This document shows, piece after piece, positions 1,829-12,591 of a stretch of 45,645 bases of DNA. The DNA comes from Colwellia sp. (GTDB lineage: Bacteria > Pseudomonadota > Gammaproteobacteria > Enterobacterales > Alteromonadaceae): positions 1 through 45,645 of the forward strand of contig NZ_JABSOV010000027.1 in the NCBI RefSeq assembly GCF_013215345.1, written 5' to 3'. Both the position numbers and the translations under genes were made by a program. The notes beneath the pieces were generated by a model. The model did not search any database, was not told the DNA's origin, and saw only the letters and a program-made list of their open reading frames with translations. Within the stretch, counting starts at the first letter, position 1; each line of letters starts with the position of its first letter.

Positions 1829-2734
1829 TTAGAAAATATTTTGATGCAAACGTAATTCCTCATCAATCATTACTACGTTGATATCGCCCTCAATAACTAA
1901 ATTAGAATTGACCATCAAAGATGTTGAATAAATACCACTCGTTAATACTGAATGAGAAATAACGGTTGCTGATAATATTGCTGAAGTGTTGCTGGCTTTA
2001 TCATCATGCTTCTTTTTGTCATTAGTATTGCTGCTGTTTGCATTAGTGCTATTTGAATTGCTGCTATTTGAATTAATTATGTGTGAATAGCTCTTCCCTT
2101 CAACCAGTGTGCTACGTTCATAGTGTGCTGATGTGGTCAGCCCCTGATTACTCAGCTGTAAAATAGCAATATTTTCTTGCGGGTTCTTTGGGTTTTTAAT
2201 GGCTACATTAAATGGTGAGCCATCTGGTTTATTACCATTAACATAAATATCTCCACCAAAATTAATTAAAGCAGCCATATTTTCATTTTTAGCTATTTCG
2301 CCGGCTTGATCAACTGCAAACTCTTTAATCACGCCCCCCAAATCAAGCTTCACATAAGCATTTGAAAAGTTAATGCTATTTTCTGTTAACCTCCATTTAT
2401 CAGCACCAATAAAAGGCTTTAACCTAGCTCTACAAGCTTCTATTTTCGCTACAGTAGTCAGCTTGGCACATTGTTTTAATGTGCCAACAGTAATATCAAA
2501 ACTTCCTTGGGTTGTAGCTGATAACGTTCGTACTAGTGATAATACATGATGAGTTTCTTTATCAATGTTAACAATCGCTTGTTCTCGATTATTAATCTTG
2601 GCAATTAATGAATCATCACTAAAAAAATTATACTTTTTTTCTAGTCTGCGAGTGTTGCTTTCAATCAAGCGCGCAACCTTGTCCGCCGCTTTGGCATCCG
2701 CAGCATAAAGTTGCACTTCACAGGGTGTGGTCAT
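1829..2734 (-). CDS. apbE: ApbE-type FAD:protein FMN transferase (divergent)
   Basis: A 301-residue ApbE family member. ApbE enzymes move FMN from FAD onto Thr/Ser of extracytoplasmic proteins, using Mg2+. Visible family motifs are an MTTPCEVQLY start, SFDITVGTL at 78-86, KLDLGGVIKEFAVDQ at 129-143, NFGGDIYVNG at 158-167 and SHII at 217-220. Oddities: the usual HIIDP continues as HIINS into a Ser/Asn-rich then Lys-rich insert (about 221-246), and the C-terminal T-x-D-x-x-x-T metal motif reads TSGIYST (265-271), so the usual Asp is Gly267. No signal peptide or good ribosome site is seen; open frame without ATG continues about 18 codons upstream. It is the last gene of the 1.8-12.5 kb redox block, whose products carry its predicted acceptor motifs. 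Confidence 0.85.
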   Translation of the reverse strand: MTTPCEVQLYAADAKAADKVARLIESNTRRLEKKYNFFSDDSLIAKINNREQAIVNIDKETHHVLSLVRTLSATTQGSFDITVGTLKQCAKLTTVAKIEACRARLKPFIGADKWRLTENSINFSNAYVKLDLGGVIKEFAVDQAGEIAKNENMAALINFGGDIYVNGNKPDGSPFNVAIKNPKNPQENIAILQLSNQGLTTSAHYERSTLVEGKSYSHIINSNSSNSNSTNANSSNTNDKKKHDDKASNTSAILSATVISHSVLTSGIYSTSLMVNSNLVIEGDINVVMIDEELRLHQNIF

Positions 2735-2820
2735 GCAATTAAATTGATGACTATATTTTTTTAGCTTGTTATTTGAATGCGAAATAATTTAACTCATCAT
2801 TTAATAGTAATGTATTGGCA

Positions 2821-2848
2821 AGGCCTTACTAAGGTATTAGTAAGGCCT
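2821..2848. terminator. Perfect hairpin between dsbD and apbE
   Basis: AGGCCTTACT at 2821-2830 pairs perfectly with AGTAAGGCCT at 2839-2848 around an 8-base loop. It starts only 12 bases past the dsbD stop on the minus strand. No clear T tract follows on either strand, so it may be a weak terminator, an mRNA-end stabiliser, or an attenuating hairpin lowering apbE expression. Confidence 0.5.
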
Positions 2849-2859
2849 GTGATTATTCA

Positions 2860-4764
2860 CTATTCAACCACTTTAGCAATATGTTTTAAGAATTTACCTG
2901 CATCCATATATCCTACTATTCGATGATTTCTTAACTCTTCACCTTGGTCATTAAAAAACAAGATAGCGGGCGGGCCAATAATGCCAAAATGTTTCAATAA
3001 TTCAGTGTCAATATTATCATTAGCGGTAACATCAGCTTGAATCTTATGTACCTTGGCTAGTTTCAATTTCACTGCTGAATTTTTAAAAGTGACCTCTTCC
3101 ATTTCTTTACAAGAGACACACCAATCAGCATAAAAATCAAACATGGTGACTTGTTTGTTTTTACTGGCTTGCTTAAGAGTTGCCTTTAAATCATCAATAC
3201 TTTTTACTGGTTTAAAGGTAATGCCCTTGTGTTCACTAGATAAAGTAGCATTAACGCCGCTGCCTAAGTTTGCTAATGGCGACAACAGATTACTTTTCCC
3301 GGTAGAGGCACCAACAATCAAAATAAATCCAACCAGCAATAGTGATAAACCCAGCCCTTTCCATAACAACTGCCATTGTGTTGTGTCTTTATTATGTTGA
3401 CGTAAAGCGCCCATATACACAGCAGAAACAATCAATAACAGTGCCCACAATAGTTGCGTAATTAATGGTGGTAATATGCGTGCTAATAACCAAATAGCAA
3501 CGGCCAACATAAGCACACCAAAAACACCTTTCACTGCCACCATCCACATACCGGCACGAGGTAATATTTTACCTGCGGATGTACCTATAACGAGTAATGG
3601 CGCGCCCATACCCAAACCTAAACAAAACAGTGCCGCACCACCTAAAATAGTATCTCCTGTTTGACCAATATATATAAGTGCGCCTACTAATGGCGCGGTA
3701 ACACATGGTCCGACAATTAGCGCTGATAACACGCCCATAATGGCAGCACTGATTAATGTACCACTTTCCTGCTTATTGCTGAGGTTATTCAACTTAACTT
3801 GAATAAATGCTGGCATTTGCACATCATAAAAACCGAACATTGACAGTGATAACACCACAAAAATACCGGCAAAACTGCTTAATACCCAAGGGTTTTGAAA
3901 CCAAATTTGCAAGTTGGTACCAAATAAAGCGGCTAGCACTCCTACCACGGTATAAGCTAATGCCATTGCCAGCACATAGGCAAGTGATAAAGAGAAGGCT
4001 TTACGAGTAGAGAGCTGTTTTCCTTGGCCAATAATAATGCCTGATAAAATAGGGATCATAGGAAAAACACACGGTGTAAAGGCTAAAAGCAAACCAAAAC
4101 CAAAGAAACTAAACAAAGTTAAGATAAAGTTATCTGATGCTAAGCTATTCGCTATCGTGTCTTGCTCTGATTTAGTGCCTTGTTCCACCTTAGTATCGAT
4201 ATCAAAGGTACTAGGATTATCAGCCTCAGAGCCATTAGTTGCATTAGCTAAGTTAGTTAAATTAGATACATTAACGCTAGGTTTTAAATCTGCTACTTTG
4301 ATGACTTTTTTAACTGGTGGATAACAAACGCCAACATCAGCACAGCCCTGATATTTAATTTTTATGCTGGTATTGGCAAATGATGTTTCAGAGCCACTAA
4401 GCGCATATTTCACTATTAATGTATTTCTAAAGACTTCCAATCCTTTATACGCAGGATCATCAATGAATAAACTTGCTGGGAATTGTGCTGCACCTAATTG
4501 AATTGCTCGCTCTGTAGTGGCATTGTCGCTGCTTGAGCTATCGTCATGAACGATGGTTGCCAACAATTTAATGCGTTTTTTATAAAGATAATACCCGTCA
4601 GCAATATGCCATTGCAGAGAAAGAATTTTAGGACTGTCTAATGTCACTGAAAATGGAAAAGCAAGTTCGCTGGTCAACAGTGTTGACTCATCAACCGCAT
4701 TGGCACATGAACTAAAAAATAGAAAATAGCCAGAAAGTATTAAATGAACTAAAAATTTCTTCAT
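2860..4764 (-). CDS. dsbD: DsbD-type thiol:disulfide interchange protein
   Basis: About 634 residues from the ATG at 4764, chosen because it starts a proper signal peptide (MKKFLVHLILSGYFLFFSSCANA); the frame stays open to 4851. Family role: it carries electrons from cytoplasmic thioredoxin across the inner membrane to periplasmic thiol proteins. Domains in order: a periplasmic N-terminal domain with paired cysteines (GCADVGVCYPP), a membrane core with FTPCVFPMIP and VGPCVTAPLVG holding the buried cysteine pair, and a C-terminal thioredoxin-like domain with WCVSC (Cys549 and Cys552). All six expected redox cysteines are present. It sits inside the flavinylation block, where it would supply reductant to the TlpA-like protein and the cysteine-tailed lipoprotein. 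Confidence 0.93.
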   Translation of the reverse strand: MKKFLVHLILSGYFLFFSSCANAVDESTLLTSELAFPFSVTLDSPKILSLQWHIADGYYLYKKRIKLLATIVHDDSSSSDNATTERAIQLGAAQFPASLFIDDPAYKGLEVFRNTLIVKYALSGSETSFANTSIKIKYQGCADVGVCYPPVKKVIKVADLKPSVNVSNLTNLANATNGSEADNPSTFDIDTKVEQGTKSEQDTIANSLASDNFILTLFSFFGFGLLLAFTPCVFPMIPILSGIIIGQGKQLSTRKAFSLSLAYVLAMALAYTVVGVLAALFGTNLQIWFQNPWVLSSFAGIFVVLSLSMFGFYDVQMPAFIQVKLNNLSNKQESGTLISAAIMGVLSALIVGPCVTAPLVGALIYIGQTGDTILGGAALFCLGLGMGAPLLVIGTSAGKILPRAGMWMVAVKGVFGVLMLAVAIWLLARILPPLITQLLWALLLIVSAVYMGALRQHNKDTTQWQLLWKGLGLSLLLVGFILIVGASTGKSNLLSPLANLGSGVNATLSSEHKGITFKPVKSIDDLKATLKQASKNKQVTMFDFYADWCVSCKEMEEVTFKNSAVKLKLAKVHKIQADVTANDNIDTELLKHFGIIGPPAILFFNDQGEELRNHRIVGYMDAGKFLKHIAKVVE

Positions 4765-4911
4765 GAAAGTAACCCGTAAATTGGAAGTAATCATGGCAAG
4801 AGCGTTATAAATATCAGAGGAAATTGAGAGTAATAATAGAGAATTTGTCATCTTCGAAATATTTTTATCGAAGAACCATGGGCTTAAATACTATTGGCTT
4901 AAGTACCATGG

Positions 4912-4936
4912 ATTCCCGATCAGACACCTCGGGAAT
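4912..4936. repeat. Small stem-loop ATTCCCGA/TCGGGAAT
   Basis: ATTCCCGA at 4912-4919 pairs with TCGGGAAT at 4929-4936, followed by GAC. It lies in the 263-base gap between the second lipoprotein gene and dsbD. Just upstream CCATGGGCTTAAATA and GGCTTAAGTACCATGG form a second loose palindrome. Short ATTCCCG...CGGGAAT hairpins are often dispersed intergenic repeats. Copy number elsewhere cannot be seen here. Confidence 0.4.
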
Positions 4937-5027
4937 GACTCATATTCTATATTTCGCTCTAAAACGTTAATAATAATTTATAGTGTTCTTACCGTGTAGA
5001 AGTTATGACTAAAGGTGAAAAGCTTAA

Positions 5028-6995
5028 TTATTGATTCGCACGATGGACATCAAACCACGCTTGCTTTTTGTCATCGTTCCATGCATTAGCTGGCTCACCA
5101 AAACTAATATCTAACGTTTGTAGCGCATTTTTTGTCGCAATCAAGGCCCTGTTATTGGTAGTAAAAGCGACAGTCCCTACCTTGAGTGGCGTACTGACTA
5201 GCTCAATCTCTTTTTCAATTAACAATGTTTTCAGTACTTTGCTGGTGTTATTTTCTATCGAATAAACAACTAATGAACCACTACTGCCAATAATCACCAA
5301 TGTCCCATCAGGTGAAACATCAAAACTGGTAATATTACTTTGCGCAGCTAGTGTATGTAATAAAATGGGCTCTACACTCGGCTCAGTGACGTTATATATT
5401 GAAAGAATATTACTTTGTCCTAGATACCAAGCTAATTTGGTAAGGTCACTTCCTTGAAAAAGTTTGAATTCTTTTGGGTATTCAGTGCCCGTTGAAAGAG
5501 AGGTTAGCTTACTGCCGGTTATTACATCGATAATTTCCATACGATCAGGTGCTGATAAACTAACATAAGCCAAAGACCCACCTTCATTTAGCATAACAGC
5601 GCGATATTTAGAATCAGAAGAAAACTCGTTCACTAGGCTAAAGTCATCTACTTGCAATACCACCATTTTTTTATTGCCTCCCGAGAGAGCAACCCTGCTG
5701 CCGTCACTCGATAACGACATAGCATTTAAATCAGGAAATGAATAAAAGTCTTGCCCCTCACTTACCCCGGCAAAGCGTTGAAAGGGGATATCACTTGGGT
5801 TCGAGAAATTAGCGCGATATAGACCAACGCCACTATCCGCCCCCTCTTCACTACCACTTTTATTTTTTTTCTCTACGCCAACTAAGACACTTTGCATCGA
5901 TGAAGGGGGAGTTATGCGAATGTTCGCTAAGCTTTGCTCTGAGGCGCCAGTAAATCCATCAATATCATCACGTTCAACATCAGGTGATGCGGCAAAATCA
6001 TTGAATGATAATGTGGTAGGTATTTCTTGTGCTAAATTAAGCACAATCAAACGATTATGCCATTTTGAACCGATAACGGCATAATCACCTTGTACATGAA
6101 GGTCAGCACTTTCCTCTTCTATATAGCCAATTTCCCATTCAACATGTGGTGTCGAAAGGCTTATCTCCACTTCAGTTTCTTGGATATCCTGGACATTGAT
6201 ACTCTCTAGACTAATTGACGTAGTGTAAGTATTTAGCTGATACATACTGTCTAACATAGCCGCTACGGCTTTGTAGATATCAGTGGCTGCTATTGATTGA
6301 GCTTGATTTAAACTTGTCGCAATAGCATCAATTTGTGCAAACATAACATCATCAACACCTACTTCAACATCACTCTCAAGATAATCTTGTCCTGATAATA
6401 AAACTTCATTAGCAAAACCAAACCCATCAACAGTCATTTTCAATGATGCTTGCGCGGTTGTTGTATTGGCTAACGTATAGGGATTAAATTGGGTTTCACT
6501 GTGAACTAGCGTAGTAAACACTGTTATGTTTATATTTTTATCCGTGCTATTTACCGGTGTTGGTGCATATAAGGCAATACCTTCGGCGTTTTGCTCAATA
6601 GCTTTTCTAGCCAATAAAGGTGCTTTGCTACTGATACTGGCAATAATATCACTGGCTTTAAAGCTGTATTTACCGTCTTCAAAAGTTACGGTACTAGGCT
6701 CTGAGGCATCACATGACGCATTTCTATTATTATCAAAACATACCACGGCATTCAGCCAATAATCAGAGCCGAGTACCTTTCCTGTGACACCATCTTTTTC
6801 TATATATTCCGTTTGGTCTGGAACAGGTTCTGGTTCAGGCTCGGGTAATGGCTCAGGCTCTATAAATGTACTTGTCGATGCACAAATAGACCCAGCACTA
6901 CAATCGCCAGCCTTATAATCACTCTCTTCACAGGCGGGCAATAAACTCGCCATCATCATGAGCAGAACTAAATTGGCTTTATTATTTATTTTCAT
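5028..6995 (-). CDS. Lipoprotein with predicted FMN-attachment motif (655 aa)
   Basis: A 655-residue secreted lipoprotein: a signal peptide ending in the lipobox LLPAC, then a Pro/Glu linker. Next comes a C-D-N-N-R-N-x-x-C-D-x-x-E segment resembling a small calcium-binding or dockerin-like loop. The C-terminal ~370 residues contain repeated short strands (for example LIVLNLAQEI and MEIIDVITGSKLTSLSTG) typical of a beta-propeller. DGFTGAS at residues 346-352 (5940-5960) fits the D-G-x-S/T-G-A-S/T acceptor used by ApbE, with Thr349 or Ser352 as candidate attachment residues. It shares this layout with the 1018-residue lipoprotein of the same cluster, and the residue after the motif is Glu in both. 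It is probably anchored in the outer membrane. Start supported by GAGATAAACAC before the ATG. Confidence 0.8.
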   Translation of the reverse strand: MKINNKANLVLLMMMASLLPACEESDYKAGDCSAGSICASTSTFIEPEPLPEPEPEPVPDQTEYIEKDGVTGKVLGSDYWLNAVVCFDNNRNASCDASEPSTVTFEDGKYSFKASDIIASISSKAPLLARKAIEQNAEGIALYAPTPVNSTDKNINITVFTTLVHSETQFNPYTLANTTTAQASLKMTVDGFGFANEVLLSGQDYLESDVEVGVDDVMFAQIDAIATSLNQAQSIAATDIYKAVAAMLDSMYQLNTYTTSISLESINVQDIQETEVEISLSTPHVEWEIGYIEEESADLHVQGDYAVIGSKWHNRLIVLNLAQEIPTTLSFNDFAASPDVERDDIDGFTGASEQSLANIRITPPSSMQSVLVGVEKKNKSGSEEGADSGVGLYRANFSNPSDIPFQRFAGVSEGQDFYSFPDLNAMSLSSDGSRVALSGGNKKMVVLQVDDFSLVNEFSSDSKYRAVMLNEGGSLAYVSLSAPDRMEIIDVITGSKLTSLSTGTEYPKEFKLFQGSDLTKLAWYLGQSNILSIYNVTEPSVEPILLHTLAAQSNITSFDVSPDGTLVIIGSSGSLVVYSIENNTSKVLKTLLIEKEIELVSTPLKVGTVAFTTNNRALIATKNALQTLDISFGEPANAWNDDKKQAWFDVHRANQ

Positions 6996-7102
6996 GTGTT
7001 TATCTCTAATATTTTACAACTAATTTTTACAGTTAACTATTTACAGCTAATTATTTGCCGCTAATGAGCAATAACTAATATTCAACAATTAGCTATCAAC
7101 AA

Positions 7103-8416
7103 TTAATATCTGTATTGTGCGCCAAAATTGACCCAAGCAAAGGCTAAACCAGTAGATTGCTCTTGATAGCCCAACACTATATTCCAGGTAAGCTTCTTAC
7201 TTTCTAGATATTCCAAGCCAAGTTGCCCTGTCCATGCAGTAAAGTTACCTAAGCGATCATCCGCTGTTGCATAGCCGGTTTCAGAGAATATGTTATCAAC
7301 GGCATCATGAGCTTTAAAAAAGTTGGCTTCGTTTTGAGTATACAAACGCAATACTGGCGAGAAGCGAACGTTATCAGTAATGTTGTGATAACTTTTTGAC
7401 TCTAAAGTATGAGATTGCACTCCCCAACTGTCTTGGTAGAAGCGATAAGAGGTATGCCACGTGGTATTTTCATTCAAAGATTTTGCCGTTTGAATAGAAA
7501 TACCGCCGGCTTTTCGTTGTTCAGGGCGAGAGTCTCTTGCTAAATAATATTTAGGGTAAATATCTGCTGTAGTATATTCATCACTACTAGAGTCAATAAC
7601 ATTGATACGCCTTACTACATTGAAATATGGATTGGATAAATGACCATCTTCATACATGTAATAGGCACTAAATTTTGCGATAGTGTTTGCATCAAATACT
7701 TGAGTAATGCCGACTTGGCCATTGATTAAATCAAAGTCGTTCCATTGGCTACCTAAGCTATATTCGCCGTGTTCATCTTTTTCACCTAAATAATCATAAA
7801 CCTCATTTTTCATGTAGGAGACACCGGCAGTAATCGATCTATTTTTACTGCGATCGGTATACATTAAATATTCTACTGATAGGCCGGTATTTTTAAAGTC
7901 ATTCTCTTTTGAATAACTGGCACCAATACTCAACTCATTACGCATGGTAGGAGTACGATAAGTATATAAAAATGCTAGTGAATCTCGATGATCTTTTAAG
8001 GGTACATTTTTATAGACAAAATTATCAAGGTTAGTATCGCCATCACCAACAACACCATTAATTAATCGGGTATTACGACAATAATCATAGTAATTCTCAC
8101 CTTCTTCTGGCACACAAGCAGAAGCTCCAGTAAAGGCATCAGAGCCCGTTTCAGAAGAAGCTCCGGTTATTGAATCCCATGTAGGTGATGCCCCTGAAAT
8201 GCTATCCCAATCATACTCTCCACTTAAGGTATGATTGGGCCCAAAGTCATGCTCAATACTCAGTTTTCCATCAAGAACTTTAATGCGATCATCATTTTCT
8301 TTATATTGCTGTATTTGAATGGCCACTTTATCTTCAGCCAAGCTTGTTAAAGGTATAATGGCGGTAGCGACAGAGGTGATGACTAATAGTTTCAAATGTT
8401 TACGGCTAGCTTTCAT
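7103..8416 (-). CDS. DUF3570-type outer-membrane barrel with three DxxTGAS motifs
   Basis: About 437 residues. The ATG at 8416 is preferred over 8422 because AGGAGA is then properly spaced. A signal peptide ends near TSLAED. The rest alternates short amphipathic strands rich in Tyr, Asn and Ser and ends in aromatic residues (YRY), as expected for an outer-membrane beta-barrel; I recognise the DUF3570 type. Close to the N terminus are three near-tandem motifs: DSISGAS (residues 71-77), DSITGAS (81-87) and DAFTGAS (93-99). Each fits the ApbE flavinylation consensus. A cysteine pair follows (ACVPEEGENYYDYC). With apbE in the same block, I infer a barrel carrying up to three FMN groups. Confidence 0.8.
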   Translation of the reverse strand: MKASRKHLKLLVITSVATAIIPLTSLAEDKVAIQIQQYKENDDRIKVLDGKLSIEHDFGPNHTLSGEYDWDSISGASPTWDSITGASSETGSDAFTGASACVPEEGENYYDYCRNTRLINGVVGDGDTNLDNFVYKNVPLKDHRDSLAFLYTYRTPTMRNELSIGASYSKENDFKNTGLSVEYLMYTDRSKNRSITAGVSYMKNEVYDYLGEKDEHGEYSLGSQWNDFDLINGQVGITQVFDANTIAKFSAYYMYEDGHLSNPYFNVVRRINVIDSSSDEYTTADIYPKYYLARDSRPEQRKAGGISIQTAKSLNENTTWHTSYRFYQDSWGVQSHTLESKSYHNITDNVRFSPVLRLYTQNEANFFKAHDAVDNIFSETGYATADDRLGNFTAWTGQLGLEYLESKKLTWNIVLGYQEQSTGLAFAWVNFGAQYRY

Positions 8417-8580
8417 AAACATTCTCCTGATATTGGACTGGGTTTATTTGAGCAGGTGTAATATGACATTGATTCATTTGGTTTAATTCTATGGGTTAAT
8501 TCTATGGATTATTTTTATGAGTGAAGTCTGATTAATTATGTTGAGCGATTTAATTTTCCTATTGATAAATAACTCTGTTT

Positions 8581-8811
8581 TTAGTTACAACCACAGCCGC
8601 CACCTGAGACACCGCCACCACCTTTAGTGCCTTCTTTGGAGGTATAAATATGTTCATCAAATTTTTTGATCATCGGGTTAGGTCCACCAAAACGCATGGC
8701 TTCACTGGCAAGAGTGGCTTTTTGCCATGATTTAACCGGGACGATGCTGCAGGCACTGCAGGTAAAGCAGCAGACAATTAGCAGTAGTTTTATTTTCATC
8801 GATTGCTTCAT
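8581..8811 (-). CDS. Small DUF4266-type lipoprotein with Gly-rich CGCN tail
   Basis: A 76-residue protein from the ATG at 8811, which shares one base with the stop of the thioredoxin gene (TGATG), so the two are probably translationally coupled. A TTG at 8814 is possible but less likely. The N terminus is a lipoprotein signal with CSAC as a probable though atypical lipobox. The middle reads VKSWQKATLASEAMRFGGPNP, then a Gly-rich tail ends in GGGCGCN. The C-x-C at the extreme C terminus could form a disulfide or bind metal. The family (DUF4266 as I recall it) has no established function. Its location between the thioredoxin and barrel genes suggests it is the thiol partner of that pair. Confidence 0.82.
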   Translation of the reverse strand: MKQSMKIKLLLIVCCFTCSACSIVPVKSWQKATLASEAMRFGGPNPMIKKFDEHIYTSKEGTKGGGGVSGGGCGCN

Positions 8812-9302
8812 CAAATTTCCACCCCTAACTTTTGTAAATCATTTATAATTTTTTCATCGATATTGGGTACAGCACCAATATGTTTACCGACTATTTTGTT
8901 ATCAATGATGTAATACAAAGCGGGCATGGCTATAGGAGAGAATTCACTAATGATTGTTTGCTCAACATCATTAATAACAGGGAAATCTATAGCCAACTCT
9001 TTCTGAAAGGCTATGCCTTCATCTAACTCTTCATCAACATCAATGCCAATGACATACATTTTTTGTTGGCTGTCTTGCTTGATCATTTTTTTTATATCTG
9101 GAATCTCTTTTGCACAAGAGAGGCACCAAGAGGCAAAAAAATCAACAACACCAACCTGCCCTTTAGGAATGTTAAGTTGCTTTTGTAGGTCTTCACTAAG
9201 GGTATCACCAACTTCAACAGCAAACGCTGTACTCGGTGTTAGTAAAAAGAGTAAGACTAAAAGTATTGCGGATGGTATTACGTTAAATATTGAAGGTTTC
9301 AT
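8811..9302 (-). CDS. TlpA/ResA-like periplasmic thioredoxin
   Basis: A 163-residue protein with an N-terminal hydrophobic signal or anchor (SAILLVLLFLLTPSTAFA) and a thioredoxin fold. The active site is W-C-L-S-C (Cys60 and Cys63), with the cis-proline loop at IAMPALYY. Family role: reduction of particular periplasmic disulfides or cysteines, recharged by DsbD or CcdA. DsbD is encoded downstream in this block. The stop overlaps the start of the cysteine-tailed lipoprotein gene, pointing to that CGCN tail as a likely substrate. AGGAAT upstream of the ATG supports the start. It differs from CcmG or ResA of cytochrome c maturation in having no cytochrome genes nearby. Confidence 0.88.
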   Translation of the reverse strand: MKPSIFNVIPSAILLVLLFLLTPSTAFAVEVGDTLSEDLQKQLNIPKGQVGVVDFFASWCLSCAKEIPDIKKMIKQDSQQKMYVIGIDVDEELDEGIAFQKELAIDFPVINDVEQTIISEFSPIAMPALYYIIDNKIVGKHIGAVPNIDEKIINDLQKLGVEI

Positions 9303-9319
9303 GTCAGTATTCCTGTGGC

Positions 9320-9376
9320 ATACCCGTTACCATTCAAGATGCAGATTTCAGAGTGCATTTTGATTGGTAAAGGTAT
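9320..9376. repeat. 57-bp palindromic element related to the MITE ends
   Basis: The left arm at 9320-9343 (ATACCCGTTACCATTCAAGATGCA) is nearly the reverse complement of the right arm at 9354-9376, with a one-base gap and a few mismatches. The ATACCC...TTCAAGATGC sequence resembles the ends of the elements at 12830 and 41865. It therefore looks like a minimal, end-to-end version of the same repeat family. It lies between the large lipoprotein gene and the thioredoxin gene, where it would form a strong mRNA hairpin. Confidence 0.55.
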
Positions 9377-9431
9377 AAAAGTAATTTAATAAGCCCGCAA
9401 AAATGGGCTTAAGTCCTTATTTGAATAATAG

Positions 9432-12400
9432 TTATTGATTTGGTATTTCTATGACACCAAAATGCCTACCTTTATTATCCCCACTCCTGACACGGTAACT
9501 GAAGTACACAGTGCCGCCATCACCAGATACTGTCATTCGGTCAGCACCATCACTTTCAGGGGTATTCGAGAAAGCGATTTCTTTTAAGCTGCCATCATCC
9601 ATAATTTCTAGTTGATAAATACCATTTAAAGCTGAATCAGCTCTTTGTACTGCAATATAAAGATAATCTTTACCGTTAAAAGCTCTACCTGCTGCGCTGT
9701 ACATACGACCGCCTGTTCCGGTGTAGAACATTTTTCTTGATGATTCATCTAATGTTTCATTAAAGCTAACAATATTGCCTTCATACGTTAGTACAAATAC
9801 ACGGTTATCATGTGACCAAACACGCGCTATTTCATCTACAGCAGCTGAGGTAGTTGCACCATCCGCGGCTGTCATAATTACGTTATCTCCGTCTCTTTGA
9901 TAAACACGACTACCATCATTATTCATTGCTGGCGGTCCGTAAGTTGCATATTCGGCTGGCTCCAAGTTAATGGTGTGAGTTAACGATATTTCTCCCGCAT
10001 CACCAATTTCGTAAAATTCAGTGATGTAAGATTCATCATCTTTTTTAATCATTACTGATGCTATTGATTGCTCAGCGTTAAAGCCTACTTTTTGTGGAAC
10101 CCCAGTAGTGATGTCAATTGATGTAGTCACGGCGTTGCTTAATACACCCGTATCATCCATTGCCACGGTAAATATTCTCGCTTGCCCGGCATCATTACCA
10201 ACCTCAACAGCCGAACTCACACCAATACCATAACTACCATGTATACCAACACCCACAAGAGACTCAGTATCAAGGTAAGTTTTTGGTGTATCAGCTGTAC
10301 CTGAAACAATAACAGGTGAGCCGTCCACCAAATTTATGCCAATAAAACCATAAACATCTTCTTTATTAGCATTTTCAAACCTTACTGGTGCTAGCATAAT
10401 GCTGCCATCAACATTGGCTGCTGGGTATTGTGATGAATTATCAGCGGTTTGCACTGAAGTTGCCGTAGGTAAAACTTCAGGCATTTGACGGACACTGAAA
10501 TCAAAGTTTTTTAAATCATCAATACTAATATCACGAAAGCTGAAGTTCAAATTAGCCGTTAAAACACCTGACTGATCTCCTTGTCCATTTGTTGGACGAG
10601 TCAAAGCGCCTAGAGTAGGTTCCTCATCATTGGTAGGTTTCGATGTATTAACATTACTTACATTCGACGACCAAGTAATAGTAGAGCCAGAGCCTGCGGG
10701 GATAGTTGTCGCTAATGAAAGGTCCGAAACAACAACGGACAATGATGAACCATTATTAATGTCACTTTCTACAACCGCTGCTTTATCAGCCGCTAAAATT
10801 TGTGCTGGGGTAAGTACATTACCTTTATTAAGTTTATTAACATGGTTAAAGCCACGACCAGCAATAAAGACATTACCTTTTTCGTCGGCAGCTATGGCGC
10901 GTATACGTTCACCAACATTAAAACTTGCGATAATATTTACATCAATTGCATTCAAGTCAAAGACCCAAACAGCGTCACTTGCTGAGGAAAATATTGCGTA
11001 ATTATTATCAGGAGAGATTTCACCTGAGCGAACACTACTTGTTAGAGGTAAAGTTGTACTTAACGCCATTTTGTCGAGATCGATAATTGCAGCATAGTCA
11101 CCATCGTAAGCTAATGCTTGTCGACCATTATCAAAGAATTTTAGCGTACCAAAAATTTCATCTAGGCTAGCAACGCCATCAATAACACCCGTTGTAGTAT
11201 TGATTTTATGTAATTGATCTGTCGAGCCACTTTCACCTTCTGTCGCGACATATAAATACATACCATCGGGTGAGGTGAATTGCTCTTTAACATTAATTAA
11301 CGTGGCAAGTGAAGTAGTGACAAGATCTTTGGCAGTAACAAACTCACCAGTATCGGTTAAATCTAAGTTAAGAATATAAGTGACTTCTTCATCTAAATCT
11401 TCAACATGAACTTTATCACCAACAATTTCAAAATTACCAATGTAAGCATTTACAAAGCGTTTTGTACTGGCATCATCATGTGCCGCAAAGGTACCATCAT
11501 CCTTTATTGCTACTCTAAACAAACCATAGTTATCACTCGTACCAACAGAGTCTTCACCATTGCTAGGACGGATGTTAATGTAAACATATTGTCCATCAAG
11601 TGATGAAGTAGCACCTCGTAAACGGTGTTCACTTGCGCCTGTTGTTCCATCAATGGCGTAACGCTCACCTTCAACATTAGCAAATAAACCATTTGATTTA
11701 ATAACCGGTGTCTCACCGCTGGTATCAATCACCATCAGGCCGTTATGGTAATGCATGGTCATCGCCGTCATATTACGACCAGCTAGTGGCATAATAAAAT
11801 CAGGTGTTTCATCATGGTCACTTTGCTCCCACGTTAATTTTTCACCTTTTAGGCTGATATCGCGCTTGGCAACATGCTGAGCATTAACTTCATCAACGTC
11901 GACAGTAATAGTAAATTCTTTTGTTTCAATAAATTTACTAACCACAGCAGCAATTACTTTTAACGGATGGGCATTAGAGTGTGTCGTTAAGGCTGTTGTT
12001 ATTGAGCCTTTAATTTGCTCTGCTTGTTCAGTCGTTACCGAACCGTCAGTAGCCAATGACAACTGTTCATTTAAATAAGTTGCGGCTTGCGTTTTATTTG
12101 CTGAAATCGTTGGATTGAAGAGCATCTCGTTAGCAATAATTGTACTGTAAACATTTATTTCATCTGCACCTGGACTAGCTACATATAAGCTACCATCGGT
12201 TATTTCTAATAATCTTGCATAGTCACTAGACTTCATATTTTCTGGGATTGCAGTAGCTGAAAAGCCCACTTGACTAACTTCACCCTCATCACATTTACCG
12301 TTATTATTGCTGTCTATACACAATAAACCACTGGCAAGTTCAGGCTGAATAATTACTGGCTCATCAATAACTTCTGGTTCACTATCACTACTGCCACAAG

Positions 12401-12488
12401 CACTTAAACTACTGGCAAGAATAACGGCAATGCTCAACGACAGTGACTTCTTTTTAAAGATTGATAATGAATTTTTATTTTTTTTCAT
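9432..12488 (-). CDS. Large lipoprotein with predicted FMN-attachment motif (1018 aa)
   Basis: A 1018-residue lipoprotein: signal peptide ending in the lipobox LSAC, an acidic linker, then C-I-D-S-N-N-N-G-K-C-D-E-G-E, a calcium-loop-like segment. From about residue 220 on there are many WD/YVTN-like strands (GLMVIDTSGETPV, AIIDLDKMALSTTLPL, VWVFDLNAIDVNII), suggesting one or two beta-propellers. DGTTGAS at residues 280-286 (11631-11651) fits the ApbE acceptor consensus, and GAT recurs eight residues later. It has the same domain order as the 655-residue lipoprotein and is probably a paralogue. It is the first gene of the block and lies behind a Fur-like promoter. AAGGGAAATATCTG before the ATG supports the start. 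Function unknown; I infer a surface flavoprotein. Confidence 0.8.
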   Translation of the reverse strand: MKKNKNSLSIFKKKSLSLSIAVILASSLSACGSSDSEPEVIDEPVIIQPELASGLLCIDSNNNGKCDEGEVSQVGFSATAIPENMKSSDYARLLEITDGSLYVASPGADEINVYSTIIANEMLFNPTISANKTQAATYLNEQLSLATDGSVTTEQAEQIKGSITTALTTHSNAHPLKVIAAVVSKFIETKEFTITVDVDEVNAQHVAKRDISLKGEKLTWEQSDHDETPDFIMPLAGRNMTAMTMHYHNGLMVIDTSGETPVIKSNGLFANVEGERYAIDGTTGASEHRLRGATSSLDGQYVYINIRPSNGEDSVGTSDNYGLFRVAIKDDGTFAAHDDASTKRFVNAYIGNFEIVGDKVHVEDLDEEVTYILNLDLTDTGEFVTAKDLVTTSLATLINVKEQFTSPDGMYLYVATEGESGSTDQLHKINTTTGVIDGVASLDEIFGTLKFFDNGRQALAYDGDYAAIIDLDKMALSTTLPLTSSVRSGEISPDNNYAIFSSASDAVWVFDLNAIDVNIIASFNVGERIRAIAADEKGNVFIAGRGFNHVNKLNKGNVLTPAQILAADKAAVVESDINNGSSLSVVVSDLSLATTIPAGSGSTITWSSNVSNVNTSKPTNDEEPTLGALTRPTNGQGDQSGVLTANLNFSFRDISIDDLKNFDFSVRQMPEVLPTATSVQTADNSSQYPAANVDGSIMLAPVRFENANKEDVYGFIGINLVDGSPVIVSGTADTPKTYLDTESLVGVGIHGSYGIGVSSAVEVGNDAGQARIFTVAMDDTGVLSNAVTTSIDITTGVPQKVGFNAEQSIASVMIKKDDESYITEFYEIGDAGEISLTHTINLEPAEYATYGPPAMNNDGSRVYQRDGDNVIMTAADGATTSAAVDEIARVWSHDNRVFVLTYEGNIVSFNETLDESSRKMFYTGTGGRMYSAAGRAFNGKDYLYIAVQRADSALNGIYQLEIMDDGSLKEIAFSNTPESDGADRMTVSGDGGTVYFSYRVRSGDNKGRHFGVIEIPNQ

Positions 12489-12545
12489 CAGATATTTCCC
12501 TTGTAAATGTCTATGTTTTTAATAATCAACAGTAATTTTTCGAAG

Positions 12546-12574
12546 ATTGTAAAACAAAGTGTTACAATTGTAAA
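12546..12574 (-). promoter_or_regulatory. Sigma70-type promoter of the redox block
   Basis: On the minus strand TTTACA (12569-12574) and TACAAT (12546-12551) are separated by exactly 17 bases, close to the TTGACA/TATAAT consensus. The -10 lies about 58 bases upstream of the ATG of the 1018-residue lipoprotein. The -35 overlaps the Fur-like box by two bases. Confidence 0.6.
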
Positions 12575-12591
12575 TGATAATCGATCTCATT
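12573..12591. promoter_or_regulatory. Fur-like box
   Basis: AATGATAATCGATCTCATT matches 16 of 19 positions of the inverted-repeat Fur consensus AATGATAATCATTATCATT; the left arm is perfect. It overlaps the -35 hexamer of the promoter, which is where a Fur repressor would block RNA polymerase. It implies that the flavinylation block is induced under iron limitation. Binding is inferred, not shown. Confidence 0.6.

Follow-up and report, generated by a model that had tools for sequence, protein, structure and literature searches.

What a run of seven minus-strand open reading frames (ORFs) does together, and how much of it has been described before, is the question raised by positions 1829-12591 of a 45,645-nucleotide stretch of Colwellia sp. 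(assembly GCF_013215345.1, contig NZ_JABSOV010000027.1); the whole stretch is called the window, and the seven-gene block the cassette. An earlier note, written from the letters alone, had outlined a Fur-linked block for extracytoplasmic flavinylation and thiol redox chemistry, and the seven same-strand genes that it named were all recovered where it had placed them when the window was checked for ORFs and Pfam domains. The cassette is a real, conserved variant of the known DsbD/DUF3570 system. New beyond the core described in 2021, when compared with open-licence papers in PubMed Central (PMC), are two candidate flavin-carrying beta-propeller proteins (PropA and PropB) and an odd subclass of the ApbE family. 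We regard it as probable that the seven genes form an extended DsbD/DUF3570/DUF4266 system, in which a DsbD-fed thiol relay leads to flavin mononucleotide (FMN) on the DUF3570 barrel and both propellers, with the FMN attached by a cytoplasmic, signal-less ApbE. Gene content and order, motif conservation, a second DsbD, the lack of a hydrophobic N-terminus on ApbE and an Asp-to-Gly/Gly-to-Glu exchange in ApbE were observed directly.

The core genes were assigned by Pfam (ApbE, 2.8e-47; DUF3570, 3.6e-57; DUF4266, 1e-19; AhpC-TSA/thioredoxin, 3.5e-11; DsbD, with DsbD_TM at 5e-100 plus DsbD_N and thioredoxin domains) and are the "DsbD system" of Meheust et al. 2021 (PMC8238504); what is said of this and other cited papers refers to the parts of them used here. 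In that study 285 DsbD clusters are described, typically with genes for ApbE, DUF3570 (227), a thioredoxin-like protein (183) and DUF4266 (221), flavin was shown at two sites of the Chlorobium luteolum DUF3570, and a thiol-to-flavin route from DsbD through the thioredoxin-like protein and DUF4266 to flavin was already proposed. All five genes lie together in the cassette, the barrel carries three [ST]GA[ST] motifs, and the DUF4266 protein ends in CGCN, fitting the C-terminal CXC. By a hydrophobicity heuristic the cassette ApbE lacks the mark of an extracytosolic enzyme; a signal peptide or lipidation site on ApbE was a search filter of PMC8238504, not part of the definition of the gene set. 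The suspicion in the earlier note that parts of the block might already be described was thus borne out for the core. The electron route that it drew matches the published core model and agrees with the cassette-borne DsbD, the gene order and the motif conservation; its main idea was right but already described, because PMC8238504 proposes the same route, and a wholly new block was rejected for the same reason. Among open-licence PMC papers, no other was found to name DUF3570 or DUF4266. A Shewanella paper on dsbD and 5,5'-dithiobis(2-nitrobenzoic acid) (PMC10986466) is about how cytochromes mature and about the Mtr system, and has no bearing on the cassette.

Given that the five core genes all match the published set, the locus could be just one more member of the 2021 system with nothing new about it, which we consider possible but not the likelier outcome. 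Set against this, the parts of PMC8238504 used here make no mention of propeller acceptors, a triple-site barrel or the ApbE subclass. The core genes, the CXC tail, the barrel flavin motif and DsbD as proposed donor are shared with that system, whereas the cassette differs in its two extra motif-bearing propeller lipoproteins, in three barrel sites instead of two or one, and in a signal-less ApbE with an altered metal site. Several predicted FMN sites per block, possibly forming a flavin chain, are also a feature of the multi-flavinylated FMN-binding-domain proteins of the same paper, but the cassette sites lie in a barrel loop and in propellers, and no FMN-binding domain was reported by the Pfam scan among the seven proteins.

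Two DsbDs were present in all six cassette genomes, one in the cassette and one housekeeping-like (41-44% identity), and a single DsbD was present in 6/6 cassette-free Colwellia checked (picked from 31). By this comparison of copy number, a housekeeping copy lying here by chance was rejected; DsbD belongs to the cassette system.

Full-length PropA and PropB were found in 6 of 61 related genomes (the window's included), all cold-sea bacteria of one genus, with Colwellia psychrerythraea GAB14E, Colwellia sp. TT2012, C. marinimaniae MTCD1 and two Colwellia metagenome-assembled genomes as cassette members. The five copies that were fetched had the same seven-gene order and kept every motif. In the C. 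marinimaniae copy the flanking genes differ and the proteins are 40-80% identical overall (PropB 40%, PropA 55%). A PropB profile run against 395 genomes of the family gave no full-length match outside Colwellia; 14 genomes matched, five of them full-length and of the same genus and nine within profile positions 391-598, beyond the motif. A scan of GTDB r220 with two peptide patterns returned five propeller loci, all in Colwellia and none elsewhere. A joint propeller profile gave no full-length match in 369 gammaproteobacterial genomes besides the window's own; four others matched at positions 70-209 only, and the stretches fetched from them were without the motif.

Core genes were compared at 140 DUF3570 loci with genes called as longest ORFs. 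The first 60 loci (L029-L048 and L054-L093) were hand-picked and include near-identical copies, and the next 80 (L114-L193) were 80 places taken from a list. Within 4 kb of the 39 motif-bearing barrels in the first set, DUF4266 was found 34 times, the thioredoxin-like gene 34 times and ApbE 30 times; within 5 kb of the 36 in the second set, these counts were 29, 33 and 22. The comparison of neighbourhoods suggested in the earlier note therefore gave a divided answer, with the core genes widely together and the full-length propellers in Colwellia only, in the samples searched.

PropA and PropB are homologous (24% identity, E 7e-12) and align in register at IDGxTGASE. The minimal ApbE target is given as D-x-x-[ST]-G-A-[ST] in a review (PMC12052999), and both proteins contain it, as DGTTGAS at 11631-11651 in PropA and as DGFTGAS at 5940-5960 in PropB. 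In an alignment of 12 PropA and PropB sequences with 60 invariant columns, TGASE was the longest invariant run, the next being three. When the window was compared with C. marinimaniae, the motif window ranked by identity among the highest 0.3% in PropB and the highest 5.7% in PropA. The motif is thus strongly conserved in both propellers, which supports the reading in the earlier note. By Pfam, PropB matched WD40 only below the cut-off and PropA matched aBig_2 just above it. A model of PropB from a six-sequence alignment (mean predicted local distance difference test score, pLDDT, 47.5) was fairly confident only at about 420-590, which is a propeller, with general WD40-type propellers as Foldseek matches; the motif lies in a low-confidence loop. 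A simple lipobox pattern was fitted by PropA in all five relatives, by PropB only in L033 and by the cassette DUF4266 in none. Read by eye, the N-termini in the window contain LLPAC (PropB) and TCSAC (DUF4266), and PropA, PropB and DUF4266 are predicted lipoproteins from a Cys after a hydrophobic N-terminus. All predicted acceptors have a hydrophobic, export-like N-terminus, as judged by eye. Both propellers are predicted carriers of covalent FMN.

In the barrel, the three motifs lie at 8186-8206, 8156-8176 and 8120-8140. Three sites were present in all six cassette copies; the 36 motif-bearing barrels of the second set had a single site apiece. The barrel model (six-sequence alignment, pLDDT 44.5) has long strands, with the three motifs in a long loop (73-146), and all 50 of the PDB matches listed for it were outer-membrane barrels, at template modelling scores of 0.2-0.4 for a low-confidence model. 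The C-terminal residue is Tyr, and aromatic C-termini are common in the DUF3570 family. The barrel of the earlier note is thus supported as a barrel-like fold, at low model confidence. In all, the cassette is predicted to hold five FMN sites, spread over three proteins; most relatives with the motif have a single site in one protein.

The cassette ApbE matched Pfam PF02424 with 161.9 bits (cut-off 25.6) over profile positions 1-222 of 266. It has no hydrophobic N-terminus, even when read back to the preceding stop in the relatives and in the frame of the window; this was read from a hydrophobicity window and not with SignalP. The open frame is 319 amino acids, extending 18 codons upstream of the ATG at 2734 (window 2735-2790), to a point at which apbE begins with ATG in close relatives and ATT is read in the window. 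Across the 140 loci, 62 ApbEs had a motif-bearing DUF3570 within 8 kb, and 58 of them were also without a hydrophobic N-terminus; the four exceptions are ordinary M-G-T enzymes whose clusters differ in gene-size pattern. The 18 remaining ApbEs comprised 5 with a hydrophobic segment and 13 without. Because the cassette ApbE lacks such an N-terminus, the extracytoplasmic flavinylation proposed in the earlier note is doubtful as far as the transferase is concerned.

In the window ApbE, KEF at 2318-2326 has Glu in place of the Gly of K-G-Y, the Ser (2123-2131) and His (2078-2086) of the proposed triad are kept, and the metal-binding Asp is Gly. In an alignment of 93 sequences, 66 had Gly at this Asp, the residue by which the subclass is defined, all of them signal-less and not of the M-G-T type; 65 of the 66 had Glu at the K-G-Y Gly, and Ser and His were kept in 66/66. 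The other 27 had Asp (25) or Glu (2) at the metal position and the K-G-Y Gly throughout. ApbEs below 250 amino acids (L153, L185) were excluded from this test, and the controls L103-L106 counted as signal-less only through an alignment-based cut (by their own N-termini L103-L105 were hydrophobic and L106 fell below the threshold). The 66 and the 27 were separated by one split of the ApbE tree (support 0.963; several of the 66 are near-identical), so the exchange reflects shared ancestry and not 66 independent events. Nearest to the cassette ApbE were those of Tad-linked modules (Colwellia L035-L038 and, from another family, L076 and L077; support 0.796), and the cassette/Tad-linked group with two more sequences had support 1.0. 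In 63 of the 66 Gly-type ApbEs the fourth residue after the core's opening Met is a Cys (for example MASPC and MTTPC).

In E. coli ApbE, E169 binds the second metal and is called analogous to Treponema Lys165 (PMC4767422). As matched in this analysis, the E169 position would be the Lys of K-G-Y, with the new Glu directly after it, and the simplest reading of the exchange would be a moved carboxylate. Given that the metal Asp is replaced, the protein is called an ApbE-family protein and its role as flavin transferase is taken as probable. Listeria FmnB and the E. coli and Vibrio ApbEs share its Pfam family and the triad Ser and His (PMC8906456, PMC4767422, PMC12052999); unlike FmnB Asp301 and V. 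cholerae Asp285 (positions matched in this analysis), the cassette has Gly, with Glu for the Gly of K-G-Y. A signal-less, cytoplasmic ApbE is also known from Klebsiella pneumoniae, where it serves a soluble fumarate reductase (review PMC12052999), but the acceptor there is cytoplasmic and the cassette acceptors have export-like N-termini.

In the extended system, electrons would pass from cytoplasmic thioredoxin to the cassette-borne DsbD and on to the secreted TlpA-like protein. From there they would probably move to the CGC tail of the DUF4266 lipoprotein, in a transfer order that we infer, and then to FMN on the DUF3570 barrel and the two paralogous propeller lipoproteins. The final acceptor may be an extracellular or ligand-bound oxidant; ferric iron would be a guess. 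The FMN would be attached by the signal-less ApbE subclass with cytoplasmic FAD (flavin adenine dinucleotide), most likely before export, and the flavin-modified chains would then be exported and folded. Since a signal-less ApbE stands at motif-bearing barrels, attachment may take place in the cytoplasm before export, unless another ApbE acts.

Flavinylation by ApbE is usually regarded as periplasmic, and the features of the subclass do not seem to fit that picture. We put forward tentatively the further-reaching proposal that Gly/Glu, signal-less ApbEs, whose Glu would come from an adjoining loop of the metal site, load the precursors of outer-membrane barrels and of lipoproteins with FMN in the cytoplasm, that these precursors cross the inner membrane already flavinylated, and that Colwellia has in the cassette a DsbD-fed, five-flavin, heme-free conduit through the outer membrane. 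Should a widespread subclass of ApbE modify exported proteins while they are in the cytoplasm, the view of where covalent flavins are made would have to be revised, and so would the search filter for flavinylated systems. The propellers would then add a new kind of protein to the known flavin carriers, and the cassette would amount to an outer-membrane electron path without heme and with five predicted flavins.

Several observations weigh against the extended system. The D-x-x-[ST]GA[ST] motif was absent from 16 of 55 DUF3570s in the first set and at 44 of 80 loci in the second (at one of these 44 no barrel was called). Among the 18 ApbEs mentioned above, 13 are signal-less and 9 of these stand beside motif-less barrels, so transferase and motif are not perfectly linked. 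An Asp that is important in FmnB has been lost: Asp301 of the Listeria protein binds both Mg ions, and with metal-binding residues changed to Ala its activity was greatly reduced or abolished (PMC8906456), which could mean an altered activity here. In the samples searched, Colwellia alone has the two propellers, and the 80 further loci yielded no additional envelope protein with the motif within 5 kb of their barrels. The sole motif-bearing neighbour there was a long protein (L172), which we take to be a glutamate synthase, and extra acceptors are therefore a rare extension and not the rule.

An alternative use of the same genes would be iron acquisition, in which ferric iron, or an iron-bound ligand, would be reduced at the outer membrane under Fur control. 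The Fur-like box that the earlier note had placed at the promoter is present and conserved, though modest (14/19, or 11/14 in the 7-1-7 form). In the window, 6 sites of at least 14/19 were found where 2.55 were expected by chance, and among 189 control upstream regions 11/14 was reached in 17 and 12/14 in 3. All six cassettes carry the site, which is identical in the window and four others (11/14) and scores 12/14 in C. marinimaniae, where its distance is about the same. In the window the -35-like TTTACA of a promoter-like TTTACA-17-TACAAT (12546-12574) adjoins it; 30 such pairs were found in the region against 37.7 expected by chance. The 12/14 site in the divergent C. marinimaniae copy and the adjoining promoter-like sequence make the Fur-like site suggestive. 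Also in favour of iron, 25 DUF3570 clusters with VIT1 are reported in PMC8238504. Against it, the Pfam scan of the seven proteins gave no iron transporter and no TonB receptor, and Fur-like sites are not in excess at DUF3570 loci: 9 of 49 reached at least 11/14, five of the nine being cassette loci. With 4/44 non-cassette loci against the 17/189 controls, Fur control as a general trait of DUF3570 loci was not supported. Iron control of this cassette is plausible, no more, and the iron-acquisition reading as a whole is a tentative one.

It is unlikely, in our estimate, that the acceptors are flavinylated in the periplasm by the lipoprotein-type ApbE of the genome, with the cassette ApbE serving as a helper or in some other cytoplasmic role. 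The genome G000 does hold four ApbEs, of which one (C124) is of the ordinary, high-scoring type found across the sampled relatives. This ordinary type, presumably the NQR-linked (NQR-type) form, had a hydrophobic, lipoprotein-like N-terminus in 10/10 controls examined, and the cassette ApbE is without the catalytic metal Asp. Nevertheless, of the 75 loci whose barrel bears the motif, 58 have a signal-less ApbE no more than 8 kb from it, and such an ApbE is therefore the likeliest barrel partner. The Gly-type ApbEs also keep their triad Ser and His without exception, and the published DUF3570 was modified in E. coli by its cognate ApbE expressed without a signal peptide, be that ApbE Gly-type or ordinary (PMC8238504).

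An equally doubtful alternative is that the TGAS motifs of the propellers are structural turns, so that flavin would be on the barrel alone and the propellers would act as scaffold or ligand-binding lipoproteins: no ApbE-flavinylated beta-propeller was found in the open-licence PMC literature, and a PropA-like paralogue (726 amino acids) near a Tad-linked module has no motif, but the propeller motifs match the full seven-residue recognition sequence (PMC12052999), stay in register between paralogues of such low identity, and would be improbable as two chance motifs in one block (about 0.007 and 0.011 expected at these protein lengths). The background, 3 motifs in 834 other proteins (279,783 amino acids), was taken from the first 60 loci. 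One of these three matches is a 401-amino-acid predicted lipoprotein (L067:2526-3731) in another class, which adjoins a thioredoxin-DUF4266-DUF3570 run and carries DATTGAS near its C-terminus; it is a candidate independent flavin acceptor, unrelated to the propellers.

The minus-strand genes run in the order PropA, thioredoxin-like, DUF4266, DUF3570, PropB, DsbD and ApbE (Table 1). Intergenic gaps were 107-176 bp, and the thioredoxin-like and DUF4266 genes overlap by 4 bp; the gaps of 100-260 bp given in the earlier note were slightly too high.

Table 1. Positions of the cassette genes and of the Fur-like site in the window
Feature	Position	Strand	Description
PropA	9432..12488	-	1018-aa (amino acid) predicted lipoprotein; beta-propeller-like and aBig_2 segments; predicted flavin site S286
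TlpA/ResA-like thioredoxin	8811..9302	-	163 aa; hydrophobic N-terminus; CLSC at 9114-9125
DUF4266 small predicted lipoprotein	8581..8814	-	77 aa; C-terminal CGCN at 8584-8595
DUF3570 outer-membrane-barrel-like protein	7103..8422	-	439 aa; predicted flavin sites S79, S89 and S101 in one long loop
PropB	5028..6995	-	655-aa beta-propeller, predicted lipoprotein, PropA homologue; predicted flavin site S352
DsbD	2860..4851	-	663 aa; second copy of the genome, cassette-borne
ApbE-family protein	1829..2734	-	301 aa from ATG at 2734; signal-less
Fur-like site	12570..12589	-	just upstream of, and overlapping, promoter-like sequence 12546-12574

Two hairpins were seen between genes. One of 12 pairs lies between dsbD and apbE (2821-2848), without a following T run on the minus strand; the other, of 8 pairs, lies between PropA and the thioredoxin-like gene (9390-9411) and may separate transcripts.

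Related modules were seen alongside. A thioredoxin-DUF4266-DUF3570-ApbE module directly follows a Tad/Flp pilus run at L035 (G000:C189), L036 (G034:C12), L037 (G015:C41), L076 and L077. Tad genes were identified by Pfam at L077 (TadE, TadF, T2SSE, T2SSF, VWA) and L035 (T2SSE, secretin), and L036, L037 and L076 were assigned by gene order only; the contig of L038 is short. At the opposite end of the Tad run, three Colwellia carry a PropA-like lipoprotein that lacks the motif. A second type of DUF3570 cluster, recognised by its gene-size pattern and with mostly motif-less barrels, was found at L066, L042, L043, L045-L048, L061, L075, L087 and L090. It includes a propeller lipoprotein of about 900 amino acids, which in L066 (the only copy scanned) matches the middle domain of hydrazine synthase alpha and which has two CXXCH in L066, L042 and L043. 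Several genomes with this second cluster type also have a signal-bearing ApbE on the contig in question, at a distance of about 12 kb.

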